In this document: positions 2,671 to 21,440 of the stretch, piece by piece
Layout of the letters: each line of letters opens with the position of its first letter
How positions within the stretch are numbered: the first letter of the stretch is position 1
Assembly (NCBI RefSeq): GCF_038396845.1
Contig: NZ_CP151587.1
Coordinates: 3,384,001-3,448,000 of the forward strand
Reading direction: 5' to 3'
Length of the DNA stretch: 64,000 nucleotides
From: Gymnodinialimonas sp. 57CJ19
Lineage (GTDB): Bacteria > Pseudomonadota > Alphaproteobacteria > Rhodobacterales > Rhodobacteraceae
Made by a program: the position numbers and the translations under genes
Notes under the pieces: generated by a model
The model's input: only the letters and a program-made list of their open reading frames with translations
What the model was told of the DNA's origin: nothing
The model's database searches: none

Positions 2671-2700
2671 CGGCGTGATCCTATCGGATCGCTTGTAACG

Positions 2701-2733
2701 GGGGCTGCCAATTGATCTTGGCGGCCCTTTTTT
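2701..2733 (+). terminator. Rho-independent terminator after the OYE gene
   Basis: The stem GGGCTGCCAA / TTGGCGGCCC (one G-T wobble) has a 6-nt loop and is followed by TTTTTT. It lies 31 bp past the OYE stop, in the convergent gap before the solute-binding-protein gene. Confidence 0.85.
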
Positions 2734-2767
2734 CATGGCCAAGGGGGCGTACACTGAGATGCCCATG

Positions 2768-2800
2768 AAAAAAGGGACGACCATCGCTGGCCGCCCCTTT
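2768..2800 (-). terminator. Rho-independent terminator after the solute-binding-protein gene
   Basis: Read on the minus strand, AAAGGGGCGGCC pairs with GGTCGTCCCTTT across a 6-nt loop (two wobble pairs) and runs into TTTTTT. It ends the minus-strand operon that begins at 8613 and sits back to back with the terminator at 2701. Confidence 0.82.
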
Positions 2801-2823
2801 CCGGGAGAGACTGTCTTTTCAGA

Positions 2824-4035: not shown

Positions 4036-4171
4036 GTTAGATCCTCCCATTTTTTCCAAGTCCACCTTGGGCCGCTCTGGATGTGCCGCGTCGTCCAATC
4101 AGACGATCTCGGCACCCGATTCAAGCATTTCAGGGCGATTCTTTGACTTTCCCCGGCTTTTGGCGCCGCCA

Positions 4172-5020
4172 TTATTCAATGTCCGTGTATCCGTCGGCGG
4201 CAATGATCGGAAGGTGCGTGAACGTGTCCTTGCCCTGCATGCGCATCCAGGCGCCAGCGGCCAACACGCCACCATCAACCACCATGCTGGTGCCCGTAAC
4301 CCACCCCGACAACCGTTCGGACGCCAAGTAAAGGGCCGCACCAGCGCTGTCTTCGCCGCGTCCAAAACGCCCCATGGGAAACCATGTGCCGATGTGGGGA
4401 CGGTTGGCCAGAGGCACCTTCGAATCCGCCGTGATCTGAGCGGTATCTGTGGTTTCCGGTGCGATTGCGTTGACGCGAATACCATCGGCGCCAAGTTCCA
4501 CCGCAAGGCTTTGGGTGAACCCGGTGATGGCCGATTTGAACGCCGCATAGACCGTGGCCCGTGGGATGCCGCGAAACGCCTCGACGGTCGAGAGATTGAT
4601 GATCGCCCCCCCGGGTCCGGTTTTTTTCATCAGGGGCAAGGCCGCCTTGGTGACGCGAAACATGTGCAGCAGATTGACGCCGTAGAGCGCCTCCCACTCT
4701 TCTTCGGTGCTGTCGGCGAAAAAACTGGTGATCTTCAGGTAATCGCCCACGTTGTTCACTAATATGTCGAGCCGCCCAAACCGGTCTTCCACCTCTTGTA
4801 TCAAGCGGGCGACGTCATCGCGGTCGCGCACATCGGCGTCCACGATCAAGGCGTCAGGCATGGCGGCGCGTAAATCTGCGAGGCGGGTGGGGTCATTCTC
4901 GGCGATGGCCAATCGTATCCCGGCCTCGGCGAACAGGTCTGCCGTGGCGCGGCCAATCCCTGCCCCACCGCCCGTGATCAACGCAACCTTGCCTGCAACC
5001 TGTAGAATATCGTCGGTCAT
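4172..5020 (-). CDS. SDR-family oxidoreductase
   Basis: This 282-residue classical short-chain dehydrogenase has cofactor motif TGGGAGIG (residues 16-23), NNVG (89-92) and catalytic Ser144, Tyr158 and Lys162. The acidic residue after beta-2 (AIAENDP) favours NAD(H). A C-terminal extension of about 25 residues after the usual GTSMVVDGG end (MQGKDTFTHLPIIAADGYTD) is longer than the family norm and may cover the active site or mediate oligomerisation. The start overlaps the stop of the upstream Rossmann-fold gene (ATGA, 5017-5020). It probably oxidises an alcohol intermediate of the cluster's substrate (inference). Confidence 0.85.
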   Translation of the reverse strand: MTDDILQVAGKVALITGGGAGIGRATADLFAEAGIRLAIAENDPTRLADLRAAMPDALIVDADVRDRDDVARLIQEVEDRFGRLDILVNNVGDYLKITSFFADSTEEEWEALYGVNLLHMFRVTKAALPLMKKTGPGGAIINLSTVEAFRGIPRATVYAAFKSAITGFTQSLAVELGADGIRVNAIAPETTDTAQITADSKVPLANRPHIGTWFPMGRFGRGEDSAGAALYLASERLSGWVTGTSMVVDGGVLAAGAWMRMQGKDTFTHLPIIAADGYTDIE

Positions 5021-5943
5021 GATGCTTCTCCCGTCTGCCCGCCCGCCATTTCCACGACTTCTGCCACCGCGCGCCGCACGTCGTTGCGGGTATAACCTAA
5101 CGCGGCCATATCCTCGGACGATGGTTCGTAGGACAGAGTATTGCCGCGCCCCTGAACGATATAGGGATCGGGCAGAAGCGGATGCTCTGCGTCCTCGATC
5201 GCAATCTGCGTATCGGTGCCGGCCACATCAAAGAACAGCTGGAAGAAGTCACGGTAGCTCAGGTTTTCATCTCCGATCAGGTAGGCGCGCCCGGCCTCAC
5301 CATGTTCCAACGCCCCAGCGATGGCCTGAGCAAGAGCCGCCACAGACATGTAGTTGGTGCCCCCCGGCGGCGCGGTGTTGGGGATTTCGGGGTGCAGTCC
5401 CCGCCCCCACTCGGCCAAGGTCCGGTAGCGCAAGGCTGGCATTCCCGGCACAGCCCCGACGATGGACGGCGGGTTAAGCGTGCAGGGTGCAAACCCGTCA
5501 CCCGCCAGGGCGCGGACCCCGTCATCCGCCAATTTGCGGGCACGAATGTAGACAGAGCCTTCCACCAGATCGGGACGGAGATGGTGGTAATAACTGCCTA
5601 CCTGCACAAAGCGCTTCACACCGGCCGCCTTGGCACGCTTGGCGAAAGCCGGCACGCCCTCGGATTGGGTGTCTCGGTAGAACGCCTCTACGTCCGCGCC
5701 TTGGGGCATGTGGCGGGGATCATTGCCCGCGGCGAAAACGACCGCCTCGAAGGCGGCCAGATCATCTTCCAGAAAATCACCCTTGGAGAAATCCCCCAGC
5801 ACGATCGGAAATTCGTGGGCCGGATGGTCGGGCGCGTCCGGCGTGCTGCGAGCGGCAAGGGAAACGGAATGGCCCAACCCGCGTAAATGCAGCGCCGTGT
5901 TGATACCAATCATGCCGGTGCCGCCGACTATCAGGATGTCCAT
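5017..5943 (-). CDS. NAD(P)-dependent epimerase/dehydratase-like (extended SDR) protein
   Basis: This 308-residue protein starts with MDILIVGGTGMIGINTALHL, a GGTGxIG dinucleotide-binding motif of extended or atypical SDRs. The start at 5943 has AAGGAA 8 nt upstream and is preferred to an upstream ATG at 5988. 'FVQVGSYYHHLRPDLV' places a Tyr-containing motif where the catalytic YxxxK usually lies, but a clear Lys is absent, which is more like NmrA/atypical SDRs. The C-terminal part has DENLSYRDFFQLFF, as in sugar-epimerase and anthocyanidin-reductase relatives. It overlaps the downstream SDR by 4 bp. The function in the pathway is unassigned. Confidence 0.75.
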   Translation of the reverse strand: MDILIVGGTGMIGINTALHLRGLGHSVSLAARSTPDAPDHPAHEFPIVLGDFSKGDFLEDDLAAFEAVVFAAGNDPRHMPQGADVEAFYRDTQSEGVPAFAKRAKAAGVKRFVQVGSYYHHLRPDLVEGSVYIRARKLADDGVRALAGDGFAPCTLNPPSIVGAVPGMPALRYRTLAEWGRGLHPEIPNTAPPGGTNYMSVAALAQAIAGALEHGEAGRAYLIGDENLSYRDFFQLFFDVAGTDTQIAIEDAEHPLLPDPYIVQGRGNTLSYEPSSEDMAALGYTRNDVRRAVAEVVEMAGGQTGEAS

Positions 5944-6027
5944 CCAAAATTCCTTTCGTGTGCCAATTCCCGGGAAGCTATCGGGCATCGGGGACGCCAG
6001 TATCGTCCAAACAGACGGCGCTGCCGG

Positions 6028-6981
6028 TCAGTCCACCATGCCCAGACAGCGATCAACTTCTACAAGATCATCTGCCGTCAACCGCCACTCGACCGCAGCG
6101 GCGTTCGCGCGGACTTGTTCGGCACGGGTCGCGCCCGCCATCACCGACGCCACCTGCGGCTGCGCCAGAAGCCATGCGAAAGCCAGCTCCAACAGGCTAC
6201 GCCCCCGCGTTTGCGCGAAGGCAATCAAGGCCTCAACCTGGGTCAGACGTGCCTCGGTCAGCCCGCCCTTGAAATACGCCAGATCCACCAACCGCCCTGC
6301 ATCAGGCTGCGCGCCCTTGCGGTATTTTCCGGTCAGCAGCCCGCTGGCCAATGGAAAGTAGGGCAGCAATGCCATTCCGGTCGACTGCAAAGCGGGGAGG
6401 AGGTCGGCTTCCACATCCCGGCTGAGGATATTGTATTCCGCCTGAGTCGAAAGGAACGCCGCCCCGCCGAAACTGCGGGCTGTCCAACTGGCATCAACCA
6501 ATTGCCAGGCGGGAAGGTTCGAGCATCCGATGTAGCGAACTTTCCCCTGCGAAATAGTGTCTTCCAACGCGCGCAACGTCTCTTCAATTGGCGTGTTCGG
6601 ATCGGGGAAATGATATTGATAGAGGTCGATGTAATCGGTCTTGAGCCGCGTCAGGCTGTCCTCTACCGCGCCCATGATATAACGGCGAGAGCCGTCGTAA
6701 TCACCTCGCGCCCGCCCGCCCATGGGCGAGGCAAACTTCGTGGCCAGCACGATGTCCTTGCGACGTGGGCCAAGGACTTCACCCAAGACCGTTTCTGACC
6801 CGCCGTCGGTGCCGTAGCTGTCGGCGGTGTCGAAAAACGTGATGTCCGCATCAAGGGCCGCCTCGATCACCGCACGGGCCCCGTCCAGGTCCAACCCATC
6901 GATCATGCCGCCAAAGTTGTTGCACCCCAATCCGATGGCAGACACCCGCAGGCCCGATTTTCCCAACAGTCGCGTTTCCAT
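6028..6981 (-). CDS. aldo/keto reductase
   Basis: This 317-residue (beta/alpha)8 NADP-dependent oxidoreductase has the full catalytic tetrad: Asp51 and Tyr56 (FFDTADSYG), Lys82 (ATKFAS) and His124 (YQYHFPD). 'GLGCNNFGG' and 'YIGCSNLPAWQL' are AKR signatures, and the C-terminal MAGATRAEQVRAN resembles the NADP-phosphate-binding end of YajO/AKR11-13-type enzymes. It is the second gene of the minus-strand operon, 18 bp after the GMC oxidoreductase and about 85 bp before the extended SDR. It likely interconverts a carbonyl and an alcohol in the same route. Confidence 0.88.
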   Translation of the reverse strand: METRLLGKSGLRVSAIGLGCNNFGGMIDGLDLDGARAVIEAALDADITFFDTADSYGTDGGSETVLGEVLGPRRKDIVLATKFASPMGGRARGDYDGSRRYIMGAVEDSLTRLKTDYIDLYQYHFPDPNTPIEETLRALEDTISQGKVRYIGCSNLPAWQLVDASWTARSFGGAAFLSTQAEYNILSRDVEADLLPALQSTGMALLPYFPLASGLLTGKYRKGAQPDAGRLVDLAYFKGGLTEARLTQVEALIAFAQTRGRSLLELAFAWLLAQPQVASVMAGATRAEQVRANAAAVEWRLTADDLVEVDRCLGMVD

Positions 6982-6999
6982 GTCATCCTTTCCAGCGCG

Positions 7000-8613
7000 T
7001 CAACGCGCATCCTCGGCAATGAAGGCGGCGCCGCGCTCCGCGATCATCACAGTCGTGGCGTAGGTGTTGGCACGCACCACCGTCGGCATGATCGAGGCAT
7101 CAATCACCCGTAGCCCATCAAGCCCGTGAACTCGAAGCCGCGTATCCACGACCGCGTCACGCCCCAGCCCCATGCGACAGGTGCCAGCGACGTGATAATT
7201 GGCCGATATATTGGCGCTAATATCGGATTTGATCGCCTCAAGGCTGTCAGCAATAGGTCCCGGCGCGATTTCCGCCCCGATCACGTCGCGGATGGGCGGC
7301 GCGTCCATGATCGCACGTATTCGCAGTGCCCCCTGTGCCAAAATCTCCAGGTCACGCGCATCCGAAAATACGCCCGCCTCGATCGCGGGCGCGGCCATCG
7401 GATCATCCGATTTCAGGCGCACACGGCCGCGGCTGAACGGCACTCCTTGATACAACAGGACCGAGAACCCGTGCTGTTTGGGCAATACCCCCAACACGCC
7501 CGGTTTCCGGCGGATAATCAGCGCCGGCGCCATGCAAATCTGTAACAATGTCTCGGGCTGGCCCGGCACCGCGTCAAAGTATCCAGCAACAGGAAACAAC
7601 CCACTGGCCAAGACGCCACGACGTCCGGTGATATAGGACAACCCGGCCCGGATCGCCCCCAAAGGGCGCGCATGGCTATAGGCCGTAAGCGGCGCATTGG
7701 TGGTGAACATCATCTTGTACATCGGGTGATTTTGGTAGTTCCGCCCAACGCCGGGCAGGTCGTGGACGACATCCACACCGGACAGCGCGCTCGGGTCGCC
7801 AATCCCCGAGCGCAGCAACAATGCCGGTGAATTGATCGCCCCGCCCGCCACGATCACCTCTGCGTTGCAGCGGAAAATTTCCTCATTGGCGCCACGGCGC
7901 AGGGCAACGCCTACGGCACGTTTTCCCTCTATCACGATACGCGTCACATGCGCCTTGGTGATAACCCTCAGGTTCGGACGGGACCGCGCACGCCCAAGGT
8001 ATGCCGTCGCGGTAGACACCCGCCGCCCCTGGTCAATGGACAGGTCAGCATAGCCCGCCGCCTCATGGCCCGCTTGCACGAAGTCTTCGACCCGCGCGAT
8101 GCCGCTGGCTTCGGCCGCCTCCAGAAACAGATCACAAATAGGCGCCGTCGCAGCCCCTCTGGAGATGCGCATGGGGCCGCCAGAACCGTGCTGGGGGTCT
8201 TGTCCATAGGGGTGATCTTCCAGCTTGCGAAACCACGGCGCGACATCGCTTGCCCCCCAACCGGGGCATCCATCGGCACGCCAGCCGTCAAAATCCACAG
8301 CCCTGCCGCGCAAAAACATCATGCCGTTGATCGAGGCCGACCCGCCCATCACGCGCCCTTGCGACATATATAGCCGCCGCCCATCCAACGCGGGCTCTGG
8401 CTCGGTCTCAAAGTTCCAGTTCAACGCAGGGTCGGTACCGGTGACGACATTTGCACCGGGTATGGCAATCAACGGATTGCGGTCGGACCCGCCTGCCTCA
8501 ATCAAGATCACCCGCTTGCGCGCATCCTCGCTTAACCGCGCCGCCACAACGCAACCCGCCGCGCCTGCGCCGACGACGATATAGTCGGCTTCACTTTCCG
8601 TTGCTTTGTTCAC
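7000..8613 (-). CDS. GMC-family FAD-dependent oxidoreductase (choline dehydrogenase-like)
   Basis: This 537-residue protein opens with the FAD-binding motif YIVVGAGAAGCVVAARL and has the GMC signature MSQGRVMGGSASINGMMFLRG, plus 'GAINSPALLLRSGIGD'. The C-terminal active-site pair is present: His in ANYHVAGTCRMG and Asn in VRANTYATTVMIAE. GMC enzymes oxidise primary or secondary alcohols to carbonyls. It is a paralogue of the BetA gene at 44117 but differs near the active site and is not in a choline context, so I assign only the family. It is the first gene of the 8613-to-2824 operon, divergent from the SDR gene at 8763. Confidence 0.9.
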   Translation of the reverse strand: MNKATESEADYIVVGAGAAGCVVAARLSEDARKRVILIEAGGSDRNPLIAIPGANVVTGTDPALNWNFETEPEPALDGRRLYMSQGRVMGGSASINGMMFLRGRAVDFDGWRADGCPGWGASDVAPWFRKLEDHPYGQDPQHGSGGPMRISRGAATAPICDLFLEAAEASGIARVEDFVQAGHEAAGYADLSIDQGRRVSTATAYLGRARSRPNLRVITKAHVTRIVIEGKRAVGVALRRGANEEIFRCNAEVIVAGGAINSPALLLRSGIGDPSALSGVDVVHDLPGVGRNYQNHPMYKMMFTTNAPLTAYSHARPLGAIRAGLSYITGRRGVLASGLFPVAGYFDAVPGQPETLLQICMAPALIIRRKPGVLGVLPKQHGFSVLLYQGVPFSRGRVRLKSDDPMAAPAIEAGVFSDARDLEILAQGALRIRAIMDAPPIRDVIGAEIAPGPIADSLEAIKSDISANISANYHVAGTCRMGLGRDAVVDTRLRVHGLDGLRVIDASIMPTVVRANTYATTVMIAERGAAFIAEDAR

Positions 8614-8684
8614 GCAGTGGCACCCGATTCTGTGGCCCCGTGCCGGGCATCTGCACCATAGCTATCAGTCAGTTCGCCGCGCTG

Positions 8685-8719
8685 GATCGTCCGTTTGGAT
8701 CACGACGTATTCGACGATC
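8685..8719. promoter_or_regulatory. inverted repeat in a divergent promoter region
   Basis: GATCGTC (8685-8691) and GACGATC (8713-8719) form a perfect 7-bp inverted repeat with centres 28 bp apart, in the 149-bp gap between the GMC operon and the divergent SDR. The spacing could suit a dimeric regulator on both promoters. No regulator gene is adjacent, so this is only a candidate site. Confidence 0.3.
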
Positions 8720-8762
8720 GCCCCCAAGCTGGTTTCGGTCGATGAAGTGGATTGAACTGCGA

Positions 8763-9548
8763 ATGACGAACATCAAGCCAATGGAAATGAGCGGAAAACG
8801 TGCAATCGTGACGGGGGGTGCCAGCGGCATCGGCTTCGCCACTGCCCGCCTGTTGACCAGCCTTGGCGCGCGCGTGGTGTTAGCGGATTTGGACGAGGAC
8901 GGCGCGGAAGCAGCGTGTGACCGGATCGGCGCTGTTGCGGCCGTCACCGGCGACGTCTCGATTGATGCCGACTGCGCGGCGATCGCAGAAAGGGCCGAAC
9001 AGCAATTGGGTGCTATTGATATCCTGATCCATGCGGCCGGGATCGGCGACGAGAAAGCCCCGGCGGAAACACTGGATATTCTAGCCTGGCAACGGGTGAT
9101 GGACGTCGACATGCGGGGCACTTTTTCAATCAACAGGGCCTGCGCCGCTCGCATGCTGCCCCACGGTTCCGGCGCGATCGTGAACGTCTCTTCCATCTGC
9201 GGATTGAACGCGTTTCCGGGCAGAAGCGCCTACGGAGCGGCCAAGGCTGCGGTTAACCATCTGACGAAAACGCTCGCCTGTGAATGGGGGCCTCGCGGGC
9301 TTCGCGTCACGGCGATTGCACCGGCGTATACGCGCACACCCATGGTCGCGGACTTGATTGAGCGGGATGTATTTGATCCCGCTGACATCATCGCAAGAAC
9401 GCCTGTGGGCCGATTGGCCGAACCTGACGAAATGGCAAAAGCGGCCGTTTTCCTTGCCTCGGATTGGGCAAGTTACATTACGGGAACTACGATAAATGTG
9501 GATGGCGGTTGGGCTGCCTTCGGCGCCGCGGGCGCGGTGGCTCAGTAA
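8763..9548 (+). CDS. SDR-family oxidoreductase
   Basis: This 261-residue classical SDR has TGGASGIG (residues 18-25), an acidic residue after beta-2 (VLADLDED; NAD preference), HAAG in place of NNAG, and catalytic Ser143/144, Tyr157 and Lys161. It ends with the typical TINVDGGWAAFG. The start is uncertain: ATGs at 8742, 8763, 8781 and 8787 are in frame and none has a strong Shine-Dalgarno. I chose 8763 as giving the usual length. It is divergent from the GMC operon and monocistronic. It probably belongs to the same catabolic theme, as a beta-ketoacyl-ACP/CoA reductase-like or alcohol dehydrogenase step. The roughly 250 bp after it (9549-9797) show no further gene or clear hairpin. Confidence 0.85.
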   Translation: MTNIKPMEMSGKRAIVTGGASGIGFATARLLTSLGARVVLADLDEDGAEAACDRIGAVAAVTGDVSIDADCAAIAERAEQQLGAIDILIHAAGIGDEKAPAETLDILAWQRVMDVDMRGTFSINRACAARMLPHGSGAIVNVSSICGLNAFPGRSAYGAAKAAVNHLTKTLACEWGPRGLRVTAIAPAYTRTPMVADLIERDVFDPADIIARTPVGRLAEPDEMAKAAVFLASDWASYITGTTINVDGGWAAFGAAGAVAQ

Positions 9549-9797: not shown

Positions 9798-10970
9798 ATG
9801 CCCACGTATATCATCGTTTCAAAAGACAAAGATCCGCTTGGTCCGAACGAGATCAACGCTGGCGATAAGATCGAGGTCAATGATGGCGATGTGTTCATTG
9901 TCGATCCATCCGCAGACGACAAGATCGAGTTCAAGTCCGCCAGCGGGGCGTCCACCGACTTCGAAGTACGGTTCGAGCAAAGCAACGCCAACAAGCTGGA
10001 CGTCACATTCAAGGATGACCTCAACCCCACAATCAACATCAGTGATGATGTCGACCTAGGTGAAACGTTCATCGACGCGGACAAGGCGGATTCCATCACC
10101 TTGTATGCCGGTGATCGCGTTACCCTCGATCATTATCACGGGTCGGACGGCGTGGACATCTTCACCGCCGGTGACGATTTCACGATGCACAATCACCTCA
10201 AGACAAATAAGGGTGACGACGTCATAAGAATTGGCGCGAATGCGTCGCTGGACGAAATCGACGGCGGTAAGGGCAACGACACCCTATATAGTCAGACCGA
10301 CCCGAGTGAGTATGGCGCCAAGGACATTGAGAACGTTCAGGTCGTCTGCTTCGCGGCTGGAACGATGATCGGCACAGGCTCCGGGCAAGTCCCGGTCGAA
10401 TGTCTGAAAGTCGGGGATTACGTCAGCACGCTGGATCACGGCCAACAGCCGATCCGCTGGATCGGGTCGCGTTCGCTTGACCTTGAGGACCTGACCGCCA
10501 AGCCCAAGTTGAGACCTGTCCGGATCGCGGCGGGCGCGTTGGGAGCAGGCACCCCCACACGGGACCTCATCGTTTCTCCGCAGCATCGGATATTGGTCCG
10601 CTCGGCGATCGCAAAGCGCATGTTCGACACGGCCGATGTGCTTGTTCCGGCCATCAAGCTGGTTGGGATCGACGGGATCACCGTCATTGAGGATGCAACC
10701 GGGGTCACGTATTTTCACGTATTACTCGACCGGCACGAGCTTCTGTTATCAGAAGGGGCGGCGACAGAGAGTCTCTATCTTGGGCCGCAAGCTCTTGCAG
10801 GGCTGCCCCCAGAGGCCTCCGAGGAAATTCTCTATCTTTTCCCGCAGCTTGCCGATCGCAAATACAGACCAGAACCCGCCCGCCTGATCCCTGACAAAGG
10901 CCAGCAGATGAAGTCGCTTGCCCAAAGGCACGGCAAGAACCGCAAGGCGTTGGTCGCCGAATTGGCATGA
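9798..10970 (+). CDS. RTX-like / Hint-domain protein (intein-like autoprocessing fold)
   Basis: This 390-residue protein has no signal peptide. Residues 1-183 are acidic, Asp/Gly-rich beta structure including GGKGNDTLYS (156-165), a single RTX-type calcium-binding nonapeptide. Residues 184-340 are a Hint_2 domain, starting with CFAAGTMIGTG (candidate nucleophile Cys184), then PVECLKVGDYVSTLDHG and IRWIGSR, and the block-B-like SPQHRILVRS with the conserved His. A basic tail follows (KSLAQRHGKNRK). Such proteins are common in Rhodobacterales and are thought to be secreted by type I systems with Hint-mediated cleavage, though the function is not established. No terminal Asn is seen, so hydrolysis rather than splicing is more plausible. 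It is monocistronic, and a LysR gene follows. Confidence 0.8.
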   Translation: MPTYIIVSKDKDPLGPNEINAGDKIEVNDGDVFIVDPSADDKIEFKSASGASTDFEVRFEQSNANKLDVTFKDDLNPTINISDDVDLGETFIDADKADSITLYAGDRVTLDHYHGSDGVDIFTAGDDFTMHNHLKTNKGDDVIRIGANASLDEIDGGKGNDTLYSQTDPSEYGAKDIENVQVVCFAAGTMIGTGSGQVPVECLKVGDYVSTLDHGQQPIRWIGSRSLDLEDLTAKPKLRPVRIAAGALGAGTPTRDLIVSPQHRILVRSAIAKRMFDTADVLVPAIKLVGIDGITVIEDATGVTYFHVLLDRHELLLSEGAATESLYLGPQALAGLPPEASEEILYLFPQLADRKYRPEPARLIPDKGQQMKSLAQRHGKNRKALVAELA

Positions 10971-11085: not shown

Positions 11086-12045
11086 GTGAACATAAAGAAC
11101 TTCTCGGTCCCGAGCCTGCTGGATTTCCTGACTGTCGCCAATTGTGGCAGTATCAATCGGGCAGCGAGTGAGCTTAACATCTCCCAACCGGCCCTGACGC
11201 GGAACTTGAAACGTCTGGAAGACCGGCTTGGCGCACGTCTGTTTGAGCGCAGTCACAAGGGCGTCCGCCTGACGGATGCGGGCGAACTCCTGCTGGAGCA
11301 TGGACGCCGCGTAGAGCAGGAACTGCGCGACGCCGTCAGTTCCCTGAACCAATTGAAGGGGGAACGGCCTGAAAAGATCTCGATCGGCATGTCCCCCACG
11401 ATGGCCCACAGCTTTGGCCCTCAGGCGGTGATCGATATGCTGAAGAATTGGGGAGATACGCAGGTAAGGATTGTTGAGTCCCTGAAGCCGCACCTGTTGT
11501 CCGAGCTGACGTCGGGCAGGATCGACATGGTCGCAACCGTGGGCAACCCACAGGAATCCTTCGAAGAATTCGACACGGAGTACCTGTTCAGTGATGAAAT
11601 CGGGCTTTTCGCGCGTCACGGGCATCCCGCCGCCGATCTGGATACTTTCTCCATTCGGCCCTTCAAGCGGATGACGTGGGTGTTGCCCGACTCGCAGGCC
11701 TATATCCTGCAACGACTGGTCGAGTATATGGAGGGCATCGGGCTGGAGGTATCCCATACCGCGATTTACACCGCGTCGATCTCCTTCATGAAAAGCGCCG
11801 TAACACGCAGCGAGCGCATTGCCATCGCGCCGATTTCCACGTTCGAAGACGAGCTTTCGCGCGGCCAGGTCGTCAGGCTCAAAGGACAGTGGCCAGAGAT
11901 GGAACGCCACTTCTGTCTCTACACCCGCAGGCGGGAAGATCTCCCCACGCCGATGGTCGCCGCACGCACCCTGTTCATCGAAACCATGCGCGACATCGCA
12001 AAAGAGCGTCGGCTGAGGTACCAGTCCCCGCCCATCGGTCTCTGA
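11086..12045 (+). CDS. LysR-family transcriptional regulator
   Basis: This 319-residue protein starts at GTG 11086 with GAGG 6 nt upstream; the upstream in-frame extension reads as non-coding. The N-terminal winged helix-turn-helix is clear: LLDFLTVANCGSINRAASEL, then NISQPALTRNLKRLEDRLG and LFERSHKGVRLTDAGE. A LysR substrate-binding domain follows (residues 90-300). It lies 140 bp upstream of and collinear with the hydro-lyase/TTT operon, and a candidate LysR box sits in the gap. LysR regulators commonly respond to the pathway substrate, so this one probably senses the carboxylate imported by the TTT system (inference). Confidence 0.9.
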   Translation: MNIKNFSVPSLLDFLTVANCGSINRAASELNISQPALTRNLKRLEDRLGARLFERSHKGVRLTDAGELLLEHGRRVEQELRDAVSSLNQLKGERPEKISIGMSPTMAHSFGPQAVIDMLKNWGDTQVRIVESLKPHLLSELTSGRIDMVATVGNPQESFEEFDTEYLFSDEIGLFARHGHPAADLDTFSIRPFKRMTWVLPDSQAYILQRLVEYMEGIGLEVSHTAIYTASISFMKSAVTRSERIAIAPISTFEDELSRGQVVRLKGQWPEMERHFCLYTRRREDLPTPMVAARTLFIETMRDIAKERRLRYQSPPIGL

Positions 12046-12079
12046 GGCCAGATCCGCAACCTGCGTTGCGCTAAAGCCC

Positions 12080-12096
12080 TATACCCTAAAGGCATA
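12080..12096 (+). promoter_or_regulatory. candidate LysR-type (T-N11-A) binding site
   Basis: TATACC and GGCATA form an imperfect inverted repeat around CTAAA, fitting the T-N11-A pattern of LysR sites. It lies about 90 bp upstream of the hydro-lyase start and just after the LysR gene. Confidence 0.4.
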
Positions 12097-12185
12097 CCCC
12101 GAGCCGCAATCGGCATTATCCCGGCCCCTGCATCCTTGTTAGCGTTGATAAAACGGCAGGTCTGGCAACTTGGGGAGGCTGAAAC

Positions 12186-13469
12186 ATGGGCATGACGGCG
12201 GGCGAGAAAATCCTTGCGAAGGCAAGCGGCCTTGATCGTGTAAGCCCCGGAGATGTAGTCTATCCCGATCCCGAACTCGTCATTTGTCATGACGGCTATA
12301 TCGCGTCCAGCAAAGAGCAATTGGATGATCTGGGCATCGACAGGGTCTTCGACCCCGACCGCATTTTGCTGGTGACGGATCACACTGTTCTCTACACCAC
12401 ACAGGCCCATGCCGAGCGAGGCGCGGCGATCCGAAAGGCTGCGCGTGACTGGGGTATCCGCAACTTTCTGGACGTGGGCAACACAGCCCAGGGGCATGTC
12501 TACCCGATTGAAAAGGGTCTTGTTTTGCCCGGCACCTTCGCTTTCGCCAATGACATGCATTGCACGAATAACGGGGCGGTGGGCGCGCTGGTGATGCGCA
12601 CGGGTCCCGAGATCATCTCGGTGTTCGCCACAGGCACTATGTGGGTCGAGGTGCCGCAGACGGTCCGGATCAATTTGCACGGGACCCTGCCCGAAGGCGT
12701 CTTGTCGCGCGATTTGGGCTTCGTACTTGCGCGCGGCTTTACCGACGGCACTTTCGGGGCGGAGTGGGATTATCGCATCATCGAGTGCGGCGGCGCGGGT
12801 GTTGACGCCCTGTCCGCCGAACAACGGGTGCCCTTGTGCAATACGCTTACGGAGATTGGCGTTTGCAACGTCTTCTTCGAGCCGAATGCAGACATCATCG
12901 ACGCCGCCAGAACCGTTGCGCAACGCCCTTTCACACCGGTCTACAGTGACGCCGATGCCCATTATGAGGCGGTGATAGATTTCGACCTGTCACAGTTGAC
13001 GCCGCAATTGGCGCTGCCCGGCAGCCCCGACAGGGCGGTCTCGATCGAGGGGCACGAGGGCCGCGCCGTGGACCATGCCGTGGTCGGTTCTTGCGGGTCG
13101 TGCATGTATTCGGACATGGAAATCGTCGCCCGGACCTTGCAAGGAAACCGCGTGGCCCCCGGCACGCGTCTGTTCGTGGCACCGGGCACCCAAGCCATTA
13201 CCGCGCGGATGCGGCGCGAAGGGCTGATAGATATCTTGCAGGACGCCGGCGCCATTCTTCTGCCGCCGGGATGCGGGCCATGCGCGGGTGGGCAAATGGC
13301 GCCGATGGCACCGGGCGAGGTTTCGATCTCGACTGTGGCGACGAATACAGCGGGGCGGATGGGCGCGGCCGACTCCGATATCTATCTGGCCAGCCCCGCA
13401 ACAGTGGCGGCCTCAGCCATAAAGGGTCAGATTACCGACCCGCGCCGCGTGGCGGAGTGCGCAGCATGA
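12186..13469 (+). CDS. aconitase-superfamily hydro-lyase, large (Fe-S) subunit, LeuC/DmdA-like
   Basis: This 427-residue homologue of 3-isopropylmalate and 2,3-dimethylmalate dehydratase large subunits has a start with GGGGAGG 7 nt upstream. All three [4Fe-4S] ligands are visible: Cys303 (VGSCGSCMYSD), Cys363 and Cys366 (PPGCGPCAGG). The DSH-type catalytic pair is kept as ANDMHCTNNGAVGAL (Asp123/His125). The C-terminal 'TNTAGRMGAADSDIYLASP' replaces the LeuC 'RNFEGRQG' loop, so the substrate is unlikely to be isopropylmalate. It is coupled (ATGA at 13466) to a matching small subunit and co-oriented with a TTT transporter and an ICL/PEPM-family lyase. It probably hydrates or dehydrates an imported unsaturated or hydroxy di- or tricarboxylate. 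Confidence 0.85.
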   Translation: MGMTAGEKILAKASGLDRVSPGDVVYPDPELVICHDGYIASSKEQLDDLGIDRVFDPDRILLVTDHTVLYTTQAHAERGAAIRKAARDWGIRNFLDVGNTAQGHVYPIEKGLVLPGTFAFANDMHCTNNGAVGALVMRTGPEIISVFATGTMWVEVPQTVRINLHGTLPEGVLSRDLGFVLARGFTDGTFGAEWDYRIIECGGAGVDALSAEQRVPLCNTLTEIGVCNVFFEPNADIIDAARTVAQRPFTPVYSDADAHYEAVIDFDLSQLTPQLALPGSPDRAVSIEGHEGRAVDHAVVGSCGSCMYSDMEIVARTLQGNRVAPGTRLFVAPGTQAITARMRREGLIDILQDAGAILLPPGCGPCAGGQMAPMAPGEVSISTVATNTAGRMGAADSDIYLASPATVAASAIKGQITDPRRVAECAA

Positions 13470-14023
13470 GCGATGCCTCCCCCGTCATCCACGGCCGCTG
13501 CCACGTCTTCGGGCACGACATGGGAATGGATACCGAGGTTCTTCCCCACGCCTATGCGCAACTCTACCCATTCGACGCGGAGAAGTTGAAACACCACCTG
13601 TTCGAGCGTGTCCGCGAAGGGTTCGCCGCCCAATGCCGACCGGGTGATATCATCGTCGCGGGCCGCAACTTTGCCCATGGAAAACCGCATCCCCAAGCGC
13701 TCATCGCCATCGCGGAACTGGGCTTGCACGTGCTGTGTGAATCCATGCCCTTTTACGCCTATCGCGGCGCCATCAGCCGGGGGGTTCTGATCCATCGCGA
13801 CTGCGCAGGTGTCACCGACATGGTCGCAGATGGCGATATTGCGAGCCACGATTTCAGCACGGGCGCATTTCACAACGAAACCAACGGCAAGTCGGCAAAC
13901 TTCTCGCCGCTGCCGGAACGGCTGCTCGACATGATCCAGATCGGCGGCATGAAACCCATGCTCGCCCAATGGCGCAAAGCGCAGCTTCACCAGCACGACA
14001 CTGCAAATACAAAGGGAGACTAA
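13466..14023 (+). CDS. aconitase-superfamily hydro-lyase, small (swivel) subunit, divergent LeuD-like
   Basis: This 185-residue protein starts at ATG 13466, overlapping the large-subunit stop by 4 bp. The swivel-domain layout is recognisable: RCHVFGHDMGMDTEVLPH, then DIIVAGRNFAHGKPHPQA, then LHVLCESMPFYAYRGAISRG, matching the LeuD order 'D.DTD.IIP / G.NFGCGSSREHA / I..SFA.IF..N....G'. The hallmark GSSREHA, whose Ser/Arg bind substrate and act in catalysis in aconitases, is replaced by GKPHPQA (72-78). The length is normal for LeuD-type subunits. Either the active site uses other residues (Lys73, His75) or the pair acts on a different substrate class. The family call is fairly secure from context and motif order; the reaction is unknown. 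Confidence 0.75.
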   Translation: MSDASPVIHGRCHVFGHDMGMDTEVLPHAYAQLYPFDAEKLKHHLFERVREGFAAQCRPGDIIVAGRNFAHGKPHPQALIAIAELGLHVLCESMPFYAYRGAISRGVLIHRDCAGVTDMVADGDIASHDFSTGAFHNETNGKSANFSPLPERLLDMIQIGGMKPMLAQWRKAQLHQHDTANTKGD

Positions 14024-14024
14024 T

Positions 14025-15110
14025 ATGACTTTGAAACTTAAAACCCACCTTCTCACGATGGTTGCGGCAGGCGCGATCGCGGCCGCCAGTGCGGTATCCG
14101 CGCAGGAATTCGCGGGCGAGACCATCACGCTCTACACTCCCGGTTCCCCCGGTGGCGGTAACGACAGCTACGCGCGCACTCTGGTGCCGTGGCTGCAACA
14201 ACACTTGCCCGGCGAGCCGACGATTATCGTGCGCAACCTGCCCGGCGCCGGCACCATTGCAGGCATGAACGTGTTTCAAGCCGAGAGCGAACCGGACGGC
14301 CTTCACGCCGTGTCCATTTCGGCGTCAGGCGTGTCGAACTACGCGTTCCGCAATCCCAATGTGGAATATGATCTGGAAAACTTCATCCCGGTCCTCGCCT
14401 CCCCCCAAGGCTCCATCATCTATGCCAATCCGGACCTTGACGTGACGGGCCCCGAGAATATCGAGGTGCTGCAAGGCGCTGATCTGGTCTATGGCGGCAA
14501 CAACCCGACCGGCGCCGATTTGCCGATCATTCTGATGTTCGATTTGCTCGGATTCGAAGTGAACACGGTCTGGGGTCTGTCCCGTGGGCCATCGCGGCTG
14601 GCGTATGAACGTGGTGAGTTCAACATCAACTTCGACTCGTCCACAGGCTATTCCAACGCCGGGATCGAACTGGTTGAAGCCGGGCGCGCCGTGCCCCTGT
14701 TCACCGCAGGCGTGGTGAATGCCGAGGGCGAGATCGTCCGCGACCCCAACTTCCCCGACCTGCCCCATTTTCTGGAAGTCTACGAACAGGTCCATGGCGA
14801 GGCGCTGACTGGCGTCGCACTGGAAGCATGGCGCGCGCTCCATTCGATGAGTGCAGCCACCAACAAGGCCATCGCCCTGCCCGCCGACACCCCCGACGAA
14901 ATCGTTGAGGCCTATACCCAGGCGATCCGCGATTTGCTTGCCGACCCAGAGGCGCAAGAAGCAACCGGATCAATCTTCCTGGAATATGAGCAGATTGTCG
15001 GCCGAGAGGCGGCTTCCACGATTTTCGAGCAGGCCACCAACCTGTCGGACGAGGTCCGGGCCTACCTGAACGAATGGCTTGAAGAAAACGAGAACGTTAC
15101 GATCCAGTAG
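14025..15110 (+). CDS. tripartite tricarboxylate transporter substrate-binding protein (TctC/Bug family)
   Basis: This 361-residue periplasmic binding protein has GGGAG 8 nt upstream of the ATG. A Sec signal peptide ends AASAVSAQEFA. The family hallmark follows, ITLYTPGSPGGGNDSYAR (first phosphate/carboxylate-binding loop), then LPGEPTIIVRNLPGAGT (second conserved loop). TctC/Bug proteins bind carboxylates such as citrate, malate, aspartate or nicotinate through these loops. It lies 1 bp after the hydro-lyase small subunit, and a strong hairpin separates it from the permease. It probably supplies the hydro-lyase/lyase pathway substrate. Confidence 0.9.
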   Translation: MTLKLKTHLLTMVAAGAIAAASAVSAQEFAGETITLYTPGSPGGGNDSYARTLVPWLQQHLPGEPTIIVRNLPGAGTIAGMNVFQAESEPDGLHAVSISASGVSNYAFRNPNVEYDLENFIPVLASPQGSIIYANPDLDVTGPENIEVLQGADLVYGGNNPTGADLPIILMFDLLGFEVNTVWGLSRGPSRLAYERGEFNINFDSSTGYSNAGIELVEAGRAVPLFTAGVVNAEGEIVRDPNFPDLPHFLEVYEQVHGEALTGVALEAWRALHSMSAATNKAIALPADTPDEIVEAYTQAIRDLLADPEAQEATGSIFLEYEQIVGREAASTIFEQATNLSDEVRAYLNEWLEENENVTIQ

Positions 15111-15123
15111 CGCCTTCGACCTG

Positions 15124-15155
15124 GGCGGCGTACCCCATGCGCGGGGCACGCCGCC
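15124..15155 (+). promoter_or_regulatory. intercistronic hairpin between TTT binding protein and permease
   Basis: GGCGGCGT (15124-15131) pairs with ACGCCGCC (15148-15155), with an additional CCCC/GGGG pair inside. The following TTACTCTTTTCTT is only moderately T-rich. It lies 14 bp past the binding-protein stop. A stabilising or attenuating stem that raises binding protein over permease is likely. Confidence 0.6.
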
Positions 15156-15194
15156 TTACTCTTTTCTTCCCTCGGATTTACACGGATTGTTGTC

Positions 15195-17168
15195 TTGGAT
15201 CTTTTCACTGACGCCGCCCTCACCGCCCTTGGCACGCTTCTGCAACCGTTGCATCTGGCCTTCTTGTGCATGGGTGTGATGATCGGGCTGGTGGTCGGCT
15301 TCTTGCCGGGACTGGGTGGCCTTGCGGGGCTGTCTCTGATCCTGCCCTTCATCTTCGGCATGGATCCCACGTTGGCGCTCGCCGTCATGATTGGCCTGAT
15401 CGCGCCAACAACGACATCGGACACATTTCCCGCTATCCTGATGGGCATACCCGGCACCAGCGCATCCCAGGCGACGGTGCTGGACGGCTTCCCCCTCGCC
15501 AAACGCGGCGAGGGAGCGCGTGCGCTTGCGGCGGCATTTACCGCCTCCTTGTTCGGAGGGCTTATCGGCGCGCTGGCCTTGACCGTCGCGGTTTTTGCGG
15601 CCCGCCCTGTGATCTTGTCTTTCGGGTTCGGCGAGCAGCTGATGTTGGTGGTCTTCTCTCTCAGCATGGTCGGTGTTCTGACCGGGGATAGCGTGCTGAA
15701 AGGCCTGGCCGCCTGCGGCGCGGGCCTGGCATTGGGCGCCATTGGGGCGGCACCGGCCACCGGAGAATACCGCATGACCTTTGACACGGCCTACCTCACC
15801 GACGGGCTGTCCATCGTCATCGTCGGTCTGGGTCTGTTCGCTGTTCCGGAAATCGTGGACCTTCTGCGCCAGAAGGGCGCTATCTCCAGTTCCGAGATGT
15901 CGTCCAAAGGCCGCCTGCAAGGTGTCATGGACACGATCCGCAACAAATGGCTGGTCCTGCGCTGCGCCTTGATCGGCAGCCTTGTCGGTGCCCTGCCCGG
16001 CCTTGGCGGCGCGGTCGTGGATTGGATCACCTACGGTCACGTGGTGCAAAGCTCCAAGGATCGCAGTCAGTTCGGCAAGGGCGACATCCGTGGCGTGATC
16101 GCGCCGGAGGCGGCCAACAACGCCAAGGAAGGCGGCGCGCTGATGCCGACGCTGCTGTTTGGGATACCCGGCTCTGGCACCATGGCGGTGCTGTTGGGCG
16201 GCTTCCTTCTGGTGGGCATTCAGCCGGGGATGCGGATGGTTACGGACAATCTGGACCTGACCTTCACCATGATCTGGTCGTTGGCGCTTGCCAATATCCT
16301 GGGGGCTCTGGTCTGCTTCGCCCTCGCGGGGCCGGTCTCTCGGCTCACCACCATCCGCTATTCGCTGATCGGTCCGATCATGATCGTGATCATCTTCTTC
16401 GCGGCCTTCCAGGTCACGCGCAGTTGGAGCGACCTTGTGGCCCTTTTCCTCCTTGGCGTGATCGGCATCTACATGAAACGCTTCGGCTGGCCGCGTCCGG
16501 CCCTGTTGATCGGTTTCGTACTGGCCGCCGGGTTGGAAACCTCGGTCTATCAGGCCATTCAGATCTATGGCTTCCGCTTCTTCGAGCGGCCGCTGGTGCT
16601 GGTGATCACGGCCCTTACGGTTCTGTCGGTGGGCCTTGCGATCTTTTCGCGCCGTTCCCAAAAGCCACCGGAAGCGGCCGAGGCGGGCCCCCTTGCGGCA
16701 CGGTGGCCGCAGTTGGCCTTCACACTTGGGGTGGGCGTGTTTCTTGCCGTGGTGATAGCAGATGCGCTGACCCATCAGCCCCTGGGCCGGGTCTTTCCCC
16801 TGTCCATCGGCATCATCTCTGCCGTGCTTGTGGGGGCGCTACTGGTCACGCAGGTCTTTACCAAGCGCCCTACACCCGCCCTTGTTGATCATGGCTCCGG
16901 CGAGCCGGGCGGCACGCGGGATGTGCATATCATAGGGTGGATTCTGGGCCTGCTGGCTGGAATTGCGCTGGTCGGATTTCCAATCGCAGCGGCGCTTTTC
17001 GTTTTGATCTTTGCGACGGTACGCGTGGATTGGCACCCGATCCGAAATCTGTCCATGGCGGGGGGCGTCCTGCTCGGCCTCTTCATCCTGGCGCAGGCGT
17101 TGACACTTATCTATCCCGGCGGGTTGCTTCAGGAATATGTGACGATGCCCCGCTGGTTGGGCCAGTAG
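15195..17168 (+). CDS. TctA-TctB fusion, TTT-family permease
   Basis: This 657-residue membrane protein. Residues 1-490 are the large TctA permease (about ten or more membrane spans): GLVVGFLPGLGGLAGLSLI, MGIPGTSASQATVLDGFPLA and LFGIPGSGTMAVLLGGFL are the duplicated glycine/proline loops of TctA. After a charged linker (RRSQKPPEAAEAGPLAARW, residues about 493-511) comes a C-terminal TctB-like four-span domain (LAFTLGVGVFLAVVIADALT to LGLFILAQALTLIYPGG). TctA and TctB are normally separate genes. The start is TTG 15195, as no ATG or GTG precedes it in frame; the ribosome site is weak. The protein works with the binding protein upstream to import a carboxylate by secondary transport. Confidence 0.87.
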   Translation: MDLFTDAALTALGTLLQPLHLAFLCMGVMIGLVVGFLPGLGGLAGLSLILPFIFGMDPTLALAVMIGLIAPTTTSDTFPAILMGIPGTSASQATVLDGFPLAKRGEGARALAAAFTASLFGGLIGALALTVAVFAARPVILSFGFGEQLMLVVFSLSMVGVLTGDSVLKGLAACGAGLALGAIGAAPATGEYRMTFDTAYLTDGLSIVIVGLGLFAVPEIVDLLRQKGAISSSEMSSKGRLQGVMDTIRNKWLVLRCALIGSLVGALPGLGGAVVDWITYGHVVQSSKDRSQFGKGDIRGVIAPEAANNAKEGGALMPTLLFGIPGSGTMAVLLGGFLLVGIQPGMRMVTDNLDLTFTMIWSLALANILGALVCFALAGPVSRLTTIRYSLIGPIMIVIIFFAAFQVTRSWSDLVALFLLGVIGIYMKRFGWPRPALLIGFVLAAGLETSVYQAIQIYGFRFFERPLVLVITALTVLSVGLAIFSRRSQKPPEAAEAGPLAARWPQLAFTLGVGVFLAVVIADALTHQPLGRVFPLSIGIISAVLVGALLVTQVFTKRPTPALVDHGSGEPGGTRDVHIIGWILGLLAGIALVGFPIAAALFVLIFATVRVDWHPIRNLSMAGGVLLGLFILAQALTLIYPGGLLQEYVTMPRWLGQ

Positions 17169-17196
17169 AGACAATCAGGAACGGAGGGCATTCGAG

Positions 17197-18066
17197 ATGT
17201 CAAAAAGCCGGAAACTACGAGAGATCCTGGCGCGTCCTCGCGGCACGGTCTCGATGGGTGTGTTCGACTGCTTGTCGGCGCGTATCGCCGAGGAAAGCGG
17301 CTATGACCTTGTGTCGATCAGCGGTAACGGCATGGTAGCAAGCCTGCTTGGCATGCCCGATCTGGGGCTGGCGACGCAGACCGAAATCGTCACGCAAAGC
17401 CGCAACATCGCCCGCGCGGTCGATGTCCCGTTGATCGCGGATGCCGACAATGGTTACGGCGGCGTGTTGAACGTGGCGCGTACGGTGCAGGAGTTCGAGG
17501 CCGCCGGGATCGCAGGTATCTTGTTGGAGGATCAGCTGTTTCCCAAACGCTCCAGCACCGTAGGGCCGCCCGAACTTGTCAGCCCGGCCGAGTTCGAGGC
17601 CTGCGTTCGCGCGGCCGTCGCCGCCCGTCGGGACCCCGATTTTGTCATCATCGCCCGCACGGATGCGCGAATGGTCGAAGGATTGGACAGCGCCATTGCT
17701 CGCATGAACGGCTACGCGGCGGCGGGTGCGGATTGCGCCTTCTATTCCTCGCTTCAATCCCGTGACGAGCTGGTGCGGGTCGTGCAGGAAACACCGCTTC
17801 CGGTGAAGCTCAACGTGATCGAGGGGTATCCACCCTCAATGTTCCGATCCGACGAATTGCTGGATATGGGCTTTGCACTGGTTGGCTATTCCGGGTTCCT
17901 CCAACGTGCGGCCATGCGGACGATGTTCGAAACACTCGCGCTGTTTGCCGAGGAGCAGACAACACAAGGCGCCCTTATGGACAAGGTGCTTTCTACCACG
18001 AGGCGGAACGAGGTGCTGCGTTTGTCTGAATTCAAGGACTTCGAGACGGCTCAAACCAAGCGTTGA
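17197..18066 (+). CDS. isocitrate lyase/PEP mutase-superfamily lyase (oxaloacetate/dimethylmalate/methylisocitrate-like)
   Basis: This 289-residue (beta/alpha)8 enzyme has the family features VSMGVFDCLSARIAE, ISGNGMVAS, the Mg2+ site LIADADNGYGG (Asp82, Asp84), LLEDQ (Glu111, Asp112) and IIARTDAR. In lyases of the family the flexible loop carries K(K/R)CGH with a catalytic Cys; here the segment is FPKRSSTVGPP (115-125), with Ser119 in place of Cys. It could be a lyase with altered chemistry, a decarboxylase or a hydrolase. The context suggests it cleaves the hydroxy acid made by the upstream hydro-lyase, giving pyruvate, glyoxylate or oxaloacetate plus a second acid. In Eubacterium barkeri, 2,3-dimethylmalate dehydratase and lyase from these same families act in sequence. 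Confidence 0.83.
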   Translation: MSKSRKLREILARPRGTVSMGVFDCLSARIAEESGYDLVSISGNGMVASLLGMPDLGLATQTEIVTQSRNIARAVDVPLIADADNGYGGVLNVARTVQEFEAAGIAGILLEDQLFPKRSSTVGPPELVSPAEFEACVRAAVAARRDPDFVIIARTDARMVEGLDSAIARMNGYAAAGADCAFYSSLQSRDELVRVVQETPLPVKLNVIEGYPPSMFRSDELLDMGFALVGYSGFLQRAAMRTMFETLALFAEEQTTQGALMDKVLSTTRRNEVLRLSEFKDFETAQTKR

Positions 18067-20672: not shown

Positions 20673-20831
20673 ACTGTGGCTGCACTTAACAGGACATTCG
20701 CCGCAAATCGAGACCAAAATTTACCTCAGCATTAACCCACCCGTAACGCTGTTTTGCCCATATTGCGCCTCAATTCACCGCGAGAACATCTCCATCACGG
20801 GCTGCCACCCGAAAACCTGAGGGGAAGACAC

Positions 20832-21440
20832 ATGACCGACACCACTTTGACCGTTGAAGAAAACACTCGCCCGATGGGTGTTGATGGCGTAGACTCGCTT
20901 GCACAAACACGAGGCAACAAATGCCCGAACGAGCGAGCAGTAAATCCAATGACCAAATCTTCCCCGCGGCCCTCGGCCCGCGCGGGCGGCAAGACCAATG
21001 CCTGTGAGGCTGGCCTTGCGCCCGGAACCACCGTTCTCACCATGGACGGCGCGATCCCTGTCGAATTCCTGAACCCCGGCGACCGCATCATTACGCGCCG
21101 CGGCGTGCGCAAGTTGAAGGCCGTCATGCGCCACAACCTGCCCGAAGGCACGCCCCGCGTTGTTGTGTCGGCCGACGCCCTTGGCGGCAAACCTTCCACA
21201 GACATCACCCTGATGCCCGGCCAGCGTGTGCTGGTCCGTGACTGGCGCGCCCAAGCATTGTGGGGCAAGGACATTGCCGCCCCCCAGGCCGCGCGTCTGG
21301 TAGATGGCGAATTCATTCGCACTGAAACCAAAGGCCGCCAGATCATGCTGTCGCTTTACTTTGGGGCGCCGGAAATCCTCTATGCCGATGGCCTTGAACT
21401 GGCCTCTGCCGACAAGCCAAAGGTGGCAGCCAAGGCTTAA
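20832..21440 (+). CDS. degenerate Hint-domain protein
   Basis: This 202-residue protein starts at ATG 20832 with GGGGAAG 5 nt upstream. A low-complexity, charged N-terminus (residues 1-55) leads into a Hint_2-like domain: GLAPGTTVLTMDGAIPVEFL, NPGDRIITRRGVRKLKAV, ADALGGKPSTDITLMPGQRV and LYFGAPEILYADGLELAS. Compared with its paralogue at 9798, the nucleophile Cys of 'CFAAGT' is Gly here (GLAPGT), although a Cys lies three residues earlier. The block-B His of 'SPQHRIL' is Gln (MPGQRVL). It therefore looks like an intact, expressed but catalytically inactive Hint fold, perhaps a binding module. A terminator follows at 21489. Confidence 0.75.
   Translation: MTDTTLTVEENTRPMGVDGVDSLAQTRGNKCPNERAVNPMTKSSPRPSARAGGKTNACEAGLAPGTTVLTMDGAIPVEFLNPGDRIITRRGVRKLKAVMRHNLPEGTPRVVVSADALGGKPSTDITLMPGQRVLVRDWRAQALWGKDIAAPQAARLVDGEFIRTETKGRQIMLSLYFGAPEILYADGLELASADKPKVAAKA

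Follow-up and report, generated by a model that had tools for sequence, protein, structure and literature searches.

Which breakdown route is encoded by an operon in which a hydro-lyase of the aconitase superfamily stands beside a lyase of the isocitrate lyase (ICL)/PEPM superfamily, with catalytic residues replaced in both? The question is raised by positions 11086–18066 of a stretch of 64,000 nucleotides, referred to as the window, from Gymnodinialimonas sp. 57CJ19, whose genome is one contig of 3.86 Mb. The preliminary description of the window, made from the sequence alone, had placed one collinear operon there, and this is confirmed: six intact reading frames, all on the + strand, form one same-strand unit. 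They code for a LysR-type regulator, the large (LeuC′) and small (LeuD′) subunits of the hydro-lyase, a TctC-like binding protein, a TctA-TctB fusion and the lyase. The favoured overall reading, with a probability of about 0.5, is a two-step carboxylate catabolic operon that would work by dehydration followed by carbon–carbon (C–C) cleavage. The whole suggests an uncharacterised two-step breakdown of an organic acid.

A lysine in place of the general-base serine

The small (swivel) subunit LeuD′ (P0003; 13466–14023, + strand) reads G-K-P-H (13679–13690) where LeuD and aconitase read G-S-S-R, and the general-base serine of that swivel-domain motif is therefore replaced by lysine. In profile A1, an alignment of 34 relatives, the lysine falls on the first serine of G-S-S-R of three small subunits with solved structures (3vba, 1v7l and 2pkp), and the profile matches 3vba at 2.7e-34. 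G73 and K74 are invariant in the 34 rows, and H76 is kept in at least 90% of them (numbering of P0003, which begins one residue ahead of the ATG methionine). Among the 106 relatives that follow the query's own record, GK-x-[HR] is found in 72, G-xK in 5 and SSR or SNR in the 29 most distant; the first two motifs make up P0008–P0084 (72/77 and 5/77) and the last P0085–P0113 (29/29). The LeuD swivel fold is present, as the AlphaFold model (mean pLDDT, a confidence score, of 95.1) has 3vba as its best Foldseek match (TMq 0.84, rmsd 1.2). LeuD′ reaches 82.0 bits against TIGR02087 (LeuD/DmdB), below the curated cut-off of 108.95, and has no Pfam match. Members of the family currently bear the automatic label '3-isopropylmalate/(R)-2-methylmalate dehydratase small subunit'.

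The change to GKxH defines a family, and the lysine may act as the base in LeuD′, judging by its alignment position only. According to PMC8184944, the general base of mitochondrial aconitase is Ser642, one of the conserved active-site residues, and Ser70 plays the same role in aconitase X (AcnX). The serine base is counted there among the active-site residues conserved in aconitases other than AcnX. A natural family without it would show that this Fe-S scaffold can also function with a different base and different substrates. The Devosia small subunit at L007:10001–10435 matches residues 9–134 only, has a different end and may be truncated.

The large subunit LeuC′ (P0002; 12186–13469, + strand; PF00330, 203.8 bits) has as its best solved relative 4nqy, the large subunit of an isopropylmalate (IPM)/citramalate isomerase, at 1.1e-65. 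The three cysteines of the 4Fe-4S cluster are kept in its SC and GCGPC motifs, as in all 61 large-subunit rows aligned, together with the D-H pair, the D and H of D-x-H, and N-x-x-x-E. The serine of D-S-H is replaced by methionine (D-M-H, 12552–12560, in the alignment to 4nqy and 1b0k), and N-R-N-F-x-G-R by A-T-N-T-A-G-R. Methionine is also the middle residue of D-x-H in the other GKxH loci; only L006 has serine, in its two large subunits alike. The same genome also has a LeuC whose motifs are canonical (L001) and one more aconitase-family gene, a longer one (L002); the LeuC′D′ pair is therefore an extra one. Two large-subunit genes accompany one small-subunit gene in L020, L031 and L006.

Exchange of the partner lyase

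Scanning genome contigs with profile A1 gave 38 loci, mostly from Burkholderiales or betaproteobacteria. With the matches from plasmids and whole genomes and the window itself, 58 loci were classed by the small-subunit motif as GKxH (28), G-xK (16), SSR (5), GNPH (3) or other (6). Flanks are mostly 7–10 kb per side, with a few shorter ones, and the window was represented by its first 32 kb. Locus counts come from translated and profile searches, since the codon-model gene set misses, for instance, the large subunits of L010, L026 and L028.

By profile searches a C–C lyase lies within 3.3 kb in 25 of the 28 GKxH loci and farther out in the flanks in none (0/28). The partners belong to four families: ICL/PEPM in 3 loci (the window, L005 and L006), HpcH/HpaI in 4 (L008–L011), RraA in 11 and BKACE in 7. 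ICL/PEPM and HpcH/HpaI share a common barrel superfamily; RraA and BKACE are distinct families. The RraA and HpaI partners are mostly (13/15) no more than 160 bases away from the LeuC′D′ pair. BKACE is found inside the operon in L056 and L057, and on the opposite strand past a TctC gene in L013, L014, L017, L019 and L022. After clustering of the GKxH loci at 80% identity, 13 of 16 groups have a lyase, and at 70%, 10 of 13. The lyase slot is exchangeable while the first enzyme stays, and the GKxH family is tied to C–C lyases and often to carboxylate-binding proteins.

The most telling locus is L057, from the same bacterial family and another genus, which keeps the gene order of the window with a different lyase at another operon position. 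It reads LeuC-LeuD′-BKACE-TctC-TctAB-SGL, with identities of 55% for LeuC, 40% for LeuD′, 38% for the TctC-like protein and 56% for TctAB. In L056, LeuD′ and BKACE are present and no large subunit was found in that stretch. When lyase labels are placed on the LeuC tree (59 rows, all classes), 8 changes are needed for 5 labels, with a minimum of 4 and a shuffled mean of 31.3; near-copies help this fit, and L042 is labelled 'none' there.

Outside the GKxH class, an ICL lies near in all SSR loci (5/5) and all others (6/6; one of the latter, L080, also has HpaI far off), and a lyase lies near in 1 of 3 GNPH loci. G-xK (e.g. G-PKMNG) is a related small-subunit class mostly without a C–C lyase nearby (near in 1/16, far in 4/16), and comprises L012, L016, L020, L023, L025–L027, L030, L031, L033–L035, L042 and L074–L076. 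The RraA of L042 was missed by tblastn and found by Pfam and profile searches. An amidohydrolase neighbour in L006 gave no match in a PDB sequence search.

The cysteine-less lyase

The lyase of the window (17197–18066, + strand; PEP_mutase PF13714, 166.7 bits) has the superfamily fold of ICL, methylisocitrate lyase and dimethylmalate lyase. Its NCBIfam score, 222.2 bits to PrpB, is under the curated cut-off. The catalytic loop reads KRSST instead of K-[KR]-C-G-H, with Ser119 (codon 17551–17553, by alignment) at the position of the catalytic cysteine of isocitrate lyases; the metal-site motifs are kept. Among 123 aligned sequences, 116 carry CGH and 7 carry SST or SSS; the latter are all the cysteine-less lyases of the set, and in all seven the glutamate of F-x-E is serine or asparagine. 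Known ICL-superfamily members without the catalytic cysteine act on keto acids. A close relative of the window's lyase bears the automatic name '2,3-dimethylmalate lyase'. An exchange of Cys to Ser abolished the activity of Mycobacterium tuberculosis ICL, as reported in PMC7609661.

Altered motifs in both enzymes had been noted in the preliminary description, correctly and even with understatement. Because both catalytic residues are replaced, the substrate is probably not a known one, as had been proposed there.

Distribution and motif covariation

In the bacterial family of the window, 27 of 394 genomes match A1 at E 1e-3, the window's genome included, and regions were taken from 25 of the 26 others (G116 was left out). 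In fifteen of these regions an SSR small subunit goes with an ICL that reads KRCGH or KKCGH, and in five a GHPH small subunit goes with an ICL that reads KRCP or KRCA. The rest are L057, L103 (its ICL cut by the contig end), and L102, L104 and L105, which have no ICL. At E 1e-28 the class sample gave matches in 13 of 385 genomes, and the phylum sample in 1 of 398, the window's own. Canonical LeuC-LeuD-ICL operons in the family and class are L059, L060, L083–L085, L087 and L090–L101, and hydantoinase A/B genes adjoin those in L059, L060 and L084.

The preliminary description had asked whether the altered motifs co-occur. In raw counts they do: the 30 linked LeuD-ICL pairs comprise 18 canonical-canonical, 12 altered-altered and no mixed pairs (Fisher p 1.2e-8 without tree correction). 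This count leaves out L027 (G-xK, with a KKCGH ICL 6.3 kb off on the other strand), L103, and the ICL-free L102, L104 and L105. On the LeuC tree, canonical versus altered is one change, giving one independent pair only. Motif covariation as proof was rejected, for the tree-corrected single contrast may simply mean that linked genes were inherited together.

Proposed pathway and alternatives

Since a C–C lyase recurrently adjoins the GKxH pair, the hydro-lyase and the lyase very probably work one after the other on a single imported acid. Serial action of these families had been proposed at the outset, and co-occurrence outside the window, on which that idea hung, is found in many operons. In the proposed scheme, the TctC-like protein and TctAB would import an organic acid, which LysR presumably senses. 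LeuC′D′ would be an Fe-S hydro-lyase with Lys and a nearby His at the positions of the base Ser and the Arg of aconitases, and would most likely turn the imported hydroxy acid into a keto acid by dehydration. The cysteine-less ICL/PEPM enzyme would then cut a C–C bond near the keto group, yielding a pyruvate-type acid and a second small product. It is possible, at a little under even odds, that LeuC′D′ is a new catalytic branch of the aconitase superfamily, with Lys/His for the Ser base and Arg, in which a one-way catabolic (de)hydratase built on an isomerase framework would serve as the fixed first step for at least four plugged-in lyase families, each route dismantling a different acid.

Dehydration to a keto acid is tentatively favoured as the direction, a choice that falls somewhat short of an even bet. 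It is preferred because the swapped-in lyase families (RraA, HpaI and BKACE) and the cysteine-less ICL relatives act on keto acids, and because SGL genes occur. The gluconolactonase-type SGL genes of L057 and L006, together with the enolase-superfamily gene of L007, suggest hydroxy or sugar-type acids; a thiamine pyrophosphate (TPP) enzyme occurs in L024. Alternatively, hydration could come first, as the preliminary description had it: an imported unsaturated di- or tricarboxylate would become a beta-hydroxy acid, from which retro-aldol cleavage by the lyase would release a keto acid plus another acid. The 18 canonical SSR/CGH LeuC-LeuD-ICL loci fit the known logic of dimethylmaleate hydration and dimethylmalate cleavage, and RraA and HpaI aldolases come after hydratases in aromatic meta-cleavage pathways. 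However, BKACE partners need a beta-keto acid. The cysteine that protonates the acid released in ICL-type cleavage is serine here, an exchange that inactivates the M. tuberculosis enzyme (PMC7609661). Hydration first is rather unlikely, and the swaps to RraA, HpaI and BKACE speak for dehydration to a keto acid at least as strongly as for the earlier order.

That the operon is simply a case of the nicotinate-type pathway, with 2,3-dimethylmalate dehydratase and dimethylmalate lyase acting on ordinary substrates, is quite improbable: neither the Ser base with its Arg nor the lyase Cys is retained, both enzymes score under the listed equivalog and subfamily cut-offs, and the same bacterial family has separate operons with ordinary motifs. 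Both enzymes have lost residues on which characterised relatives depend (PMC8184944 and PMC7609661), which could also mean that they are remnants, either without catalytic activity or regulatory. Yet the new residues are conserved (G73, K74 and H76 in the small subunit, SST or SSS in 7/7 lyases), the frames are intact, and the Fe-S and metal-site motifs are kept, which makes decay quite improbable. Finally, lyase neighbours might be a coincidence in the catabolic-gene-rich regions of Burkholderiales and alphaproteobacterial relatives, where TctC-type genes recur throughout the loci and the related G-xK class has a lyase near in 1/16 and far in 4/16. This is highly improbable given the contrast of 25/28 near against 0/28 far in GKxH loci, the short distances of the RraA and HpaI partners, and a lyase label that tracks the LeuC tree, helped by near-copies.

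Several points weigh against the favoured reading of dehydration followed by cleavage. Three of the 28 GKxH loci have no detected lyase of the four families: L007 has the enolase-superfamily gene upstream, beside LeuC′; L015 has enoyl-CoA hydratase and thiolase genes upstream; and in L024 the TPP enzyme gene comes right after LeuD′. The lyase queries were taken from the loci, and the outer flanks and the G-xK class are the sole controls. LysR and TctAB are not general, TctAB being found among the relatives only in L057 and L074–L076; TetR, ABC or stand-alone TctC genes occur in others. The D-S-H change is not essential to the family, as both L006 large subunits keep the serine. The keto-acid direction draws on the usual functions of the families and on loose neighbours. 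An ICL-type partner may equally cleave a hydroxy acid by a retro-aldol reaction, and there are known pathways in which RraA and HpaI aldolases work downstream of hydratases.

Comparison with known systems

LeuC′D′ resembles the two-subunit IPM/citramalate isomerases and homoaconitase (LeuC/LeuD; 4nqy, 3vba, 2pkp) in its fold, its two subunits, the three Fe-S cysteines, D-x-H and N-x-x-x-E. It differs from them in three motifs (K-P-H for S-S-R in the small subunit, D-M-H for D-S-H and A-T-N-T for N-R-N-F in the large one) and in scores below the curated cut-offs. In nicotinate fermentation, 2,3-dimethylmalate dehydratase and dimethylmalate lyase come from the same two superfamilies and form the same pairing. 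Unlike in that system, the catalytic residues of both window enzymes are replaced; membership in the dimethylmalate pathway was rejected, because the defining residues are absent and the LeuD/DmdB score is below its cut-off, and the analogy drawn in the preliminary description fails in this sense.

The lyase differs from methylisocitrate lyase, isocitrate lyase and oxaloacetate acetylhydrolase in Cys to Ser and in Glu of F-x-E to Ser or Asn, and membership among the ICL and methylisocitrate lyases was rejected for the replaced cysteine in KRSST. PEP mutase, phosphonopyruvate hydrolase and the PA4872 oxaloacetate decarboxylase are branches of the same fold that work without the cysteine. The first two were rejected on their scores (122.3 against 319.55 bits needed, and 127.5 against 374.4), and the PA4872-type decarboxylase is a poorer structural match. 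Aconitase X is an aconitase-superfamily dehydratase and not an isomerase, as described in PMC8184944; it retains Ser70 as its base and carries its Fe-S cluster at other sites, whereas LeuC′D′ has the canonical cysteine sites and has lost the serine. Membership in AcnX was rejected on these grounds, and Foldseek matched the LeuD′ model to the AcnX small subunit 7cnr_F only at E 1.1e-02.

Among the matches listed in the open-licence PMC literature, no title or abstract dealt with the operon, the SST lyase or a small subunit of the GKxH type. The fold families and the LeuCD-ICL/PEPM pairing are of known kinds; the GKxH branch, the cysteine-less SST clade and the lyase exchange look new. A natural family without the serine base would also correct the automatic names of the small subunits and of the close lyase relative, and the operon is a compact, testable gene set for a new route of carboxylate breakdown.

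Transport and regulation genes

The fusion (P0005; 15195–17168, + strand, TTG start) is recognised as TctA of the tripartite tricarboxylate transporters with 407.2 bits over residues 21–438, and would be an inner-membrane transporter. Further stretches resembling transmembrane segments follow TctA at 462–645. The early assignment as a TctA-TctB fusion stands for TctA; the TctB half is not recognised alone by Pfam, and is seen at 513–644 of the L057 homologue, which is 56% identical over 616 residues. The divergent TctC-like periplasmic binding protein (14025–15110, + strand) scores 21.4 bits to PF03401, below the 27-bit cut-off, against 28.6 bits for its L057 homologue, and has weak PDB matches to 2dvz and terephthalate-binding proteins. 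Homologues of it adjoin LeuC′D′ in L039 and L057. In L074–L076, of the G-xK small-subunit class, TctC-like, TctAB and SGL genes are present with none of the four lyase families. The LysR-type regulator (11086–12045, + strand, GTG start) contains HTH_1 (78.7 bits) and LysR_substrate (93.6 bits) of Pfam; its nearest NCBIfam model is PcaQ, with 163.1 bits, below the cut-off of 303.8.

Genomic setting

The LeuC′ and LeuD′ genes overlap via ATGA (13466–13469) and a 1-base gap separates LeuD′ from the binder gene, so these three genes, at minimum, likely share one transcript. L057 groups homologues of both subunits, the TctC-like protein and TctAB, and L005 and L006 group those of the lyase and both subunits; judged by this clustering, the genes are not chance open reading frames (ORFs). 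The full set of six was absent from every relative examined. No clear composition island was seen at the operon (GC 0.57–0.65). The congeners G378 and G953 have no A1 match at E 1e-28 (G378 none at E 1e-3 either) and none to the DUF5996 gene that follows the operon, and their homologues of the upstream GMC gene are only about 40% identical; the operon therefore occupies a variable region.

Upstream, at 687–9548, lie genes for a SnoaL-like protein, an NADH:flavin oxidoreductase, a periplasmic binding protein, short-chain dehydrogenases, an epimerase, an aldo/keto reductase and a GMC oxidoreductase, which look like another catabolic set. A gene for a Hint_2-domain protein (9798–10970) precedes LysR, and the ORF at 20754–21440 is similar to it by eye only. 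At 44111–45682, on the + strand, a GMC-oxidoreductase homologue contains one in-frame TAA and is possibly a decayed gene.
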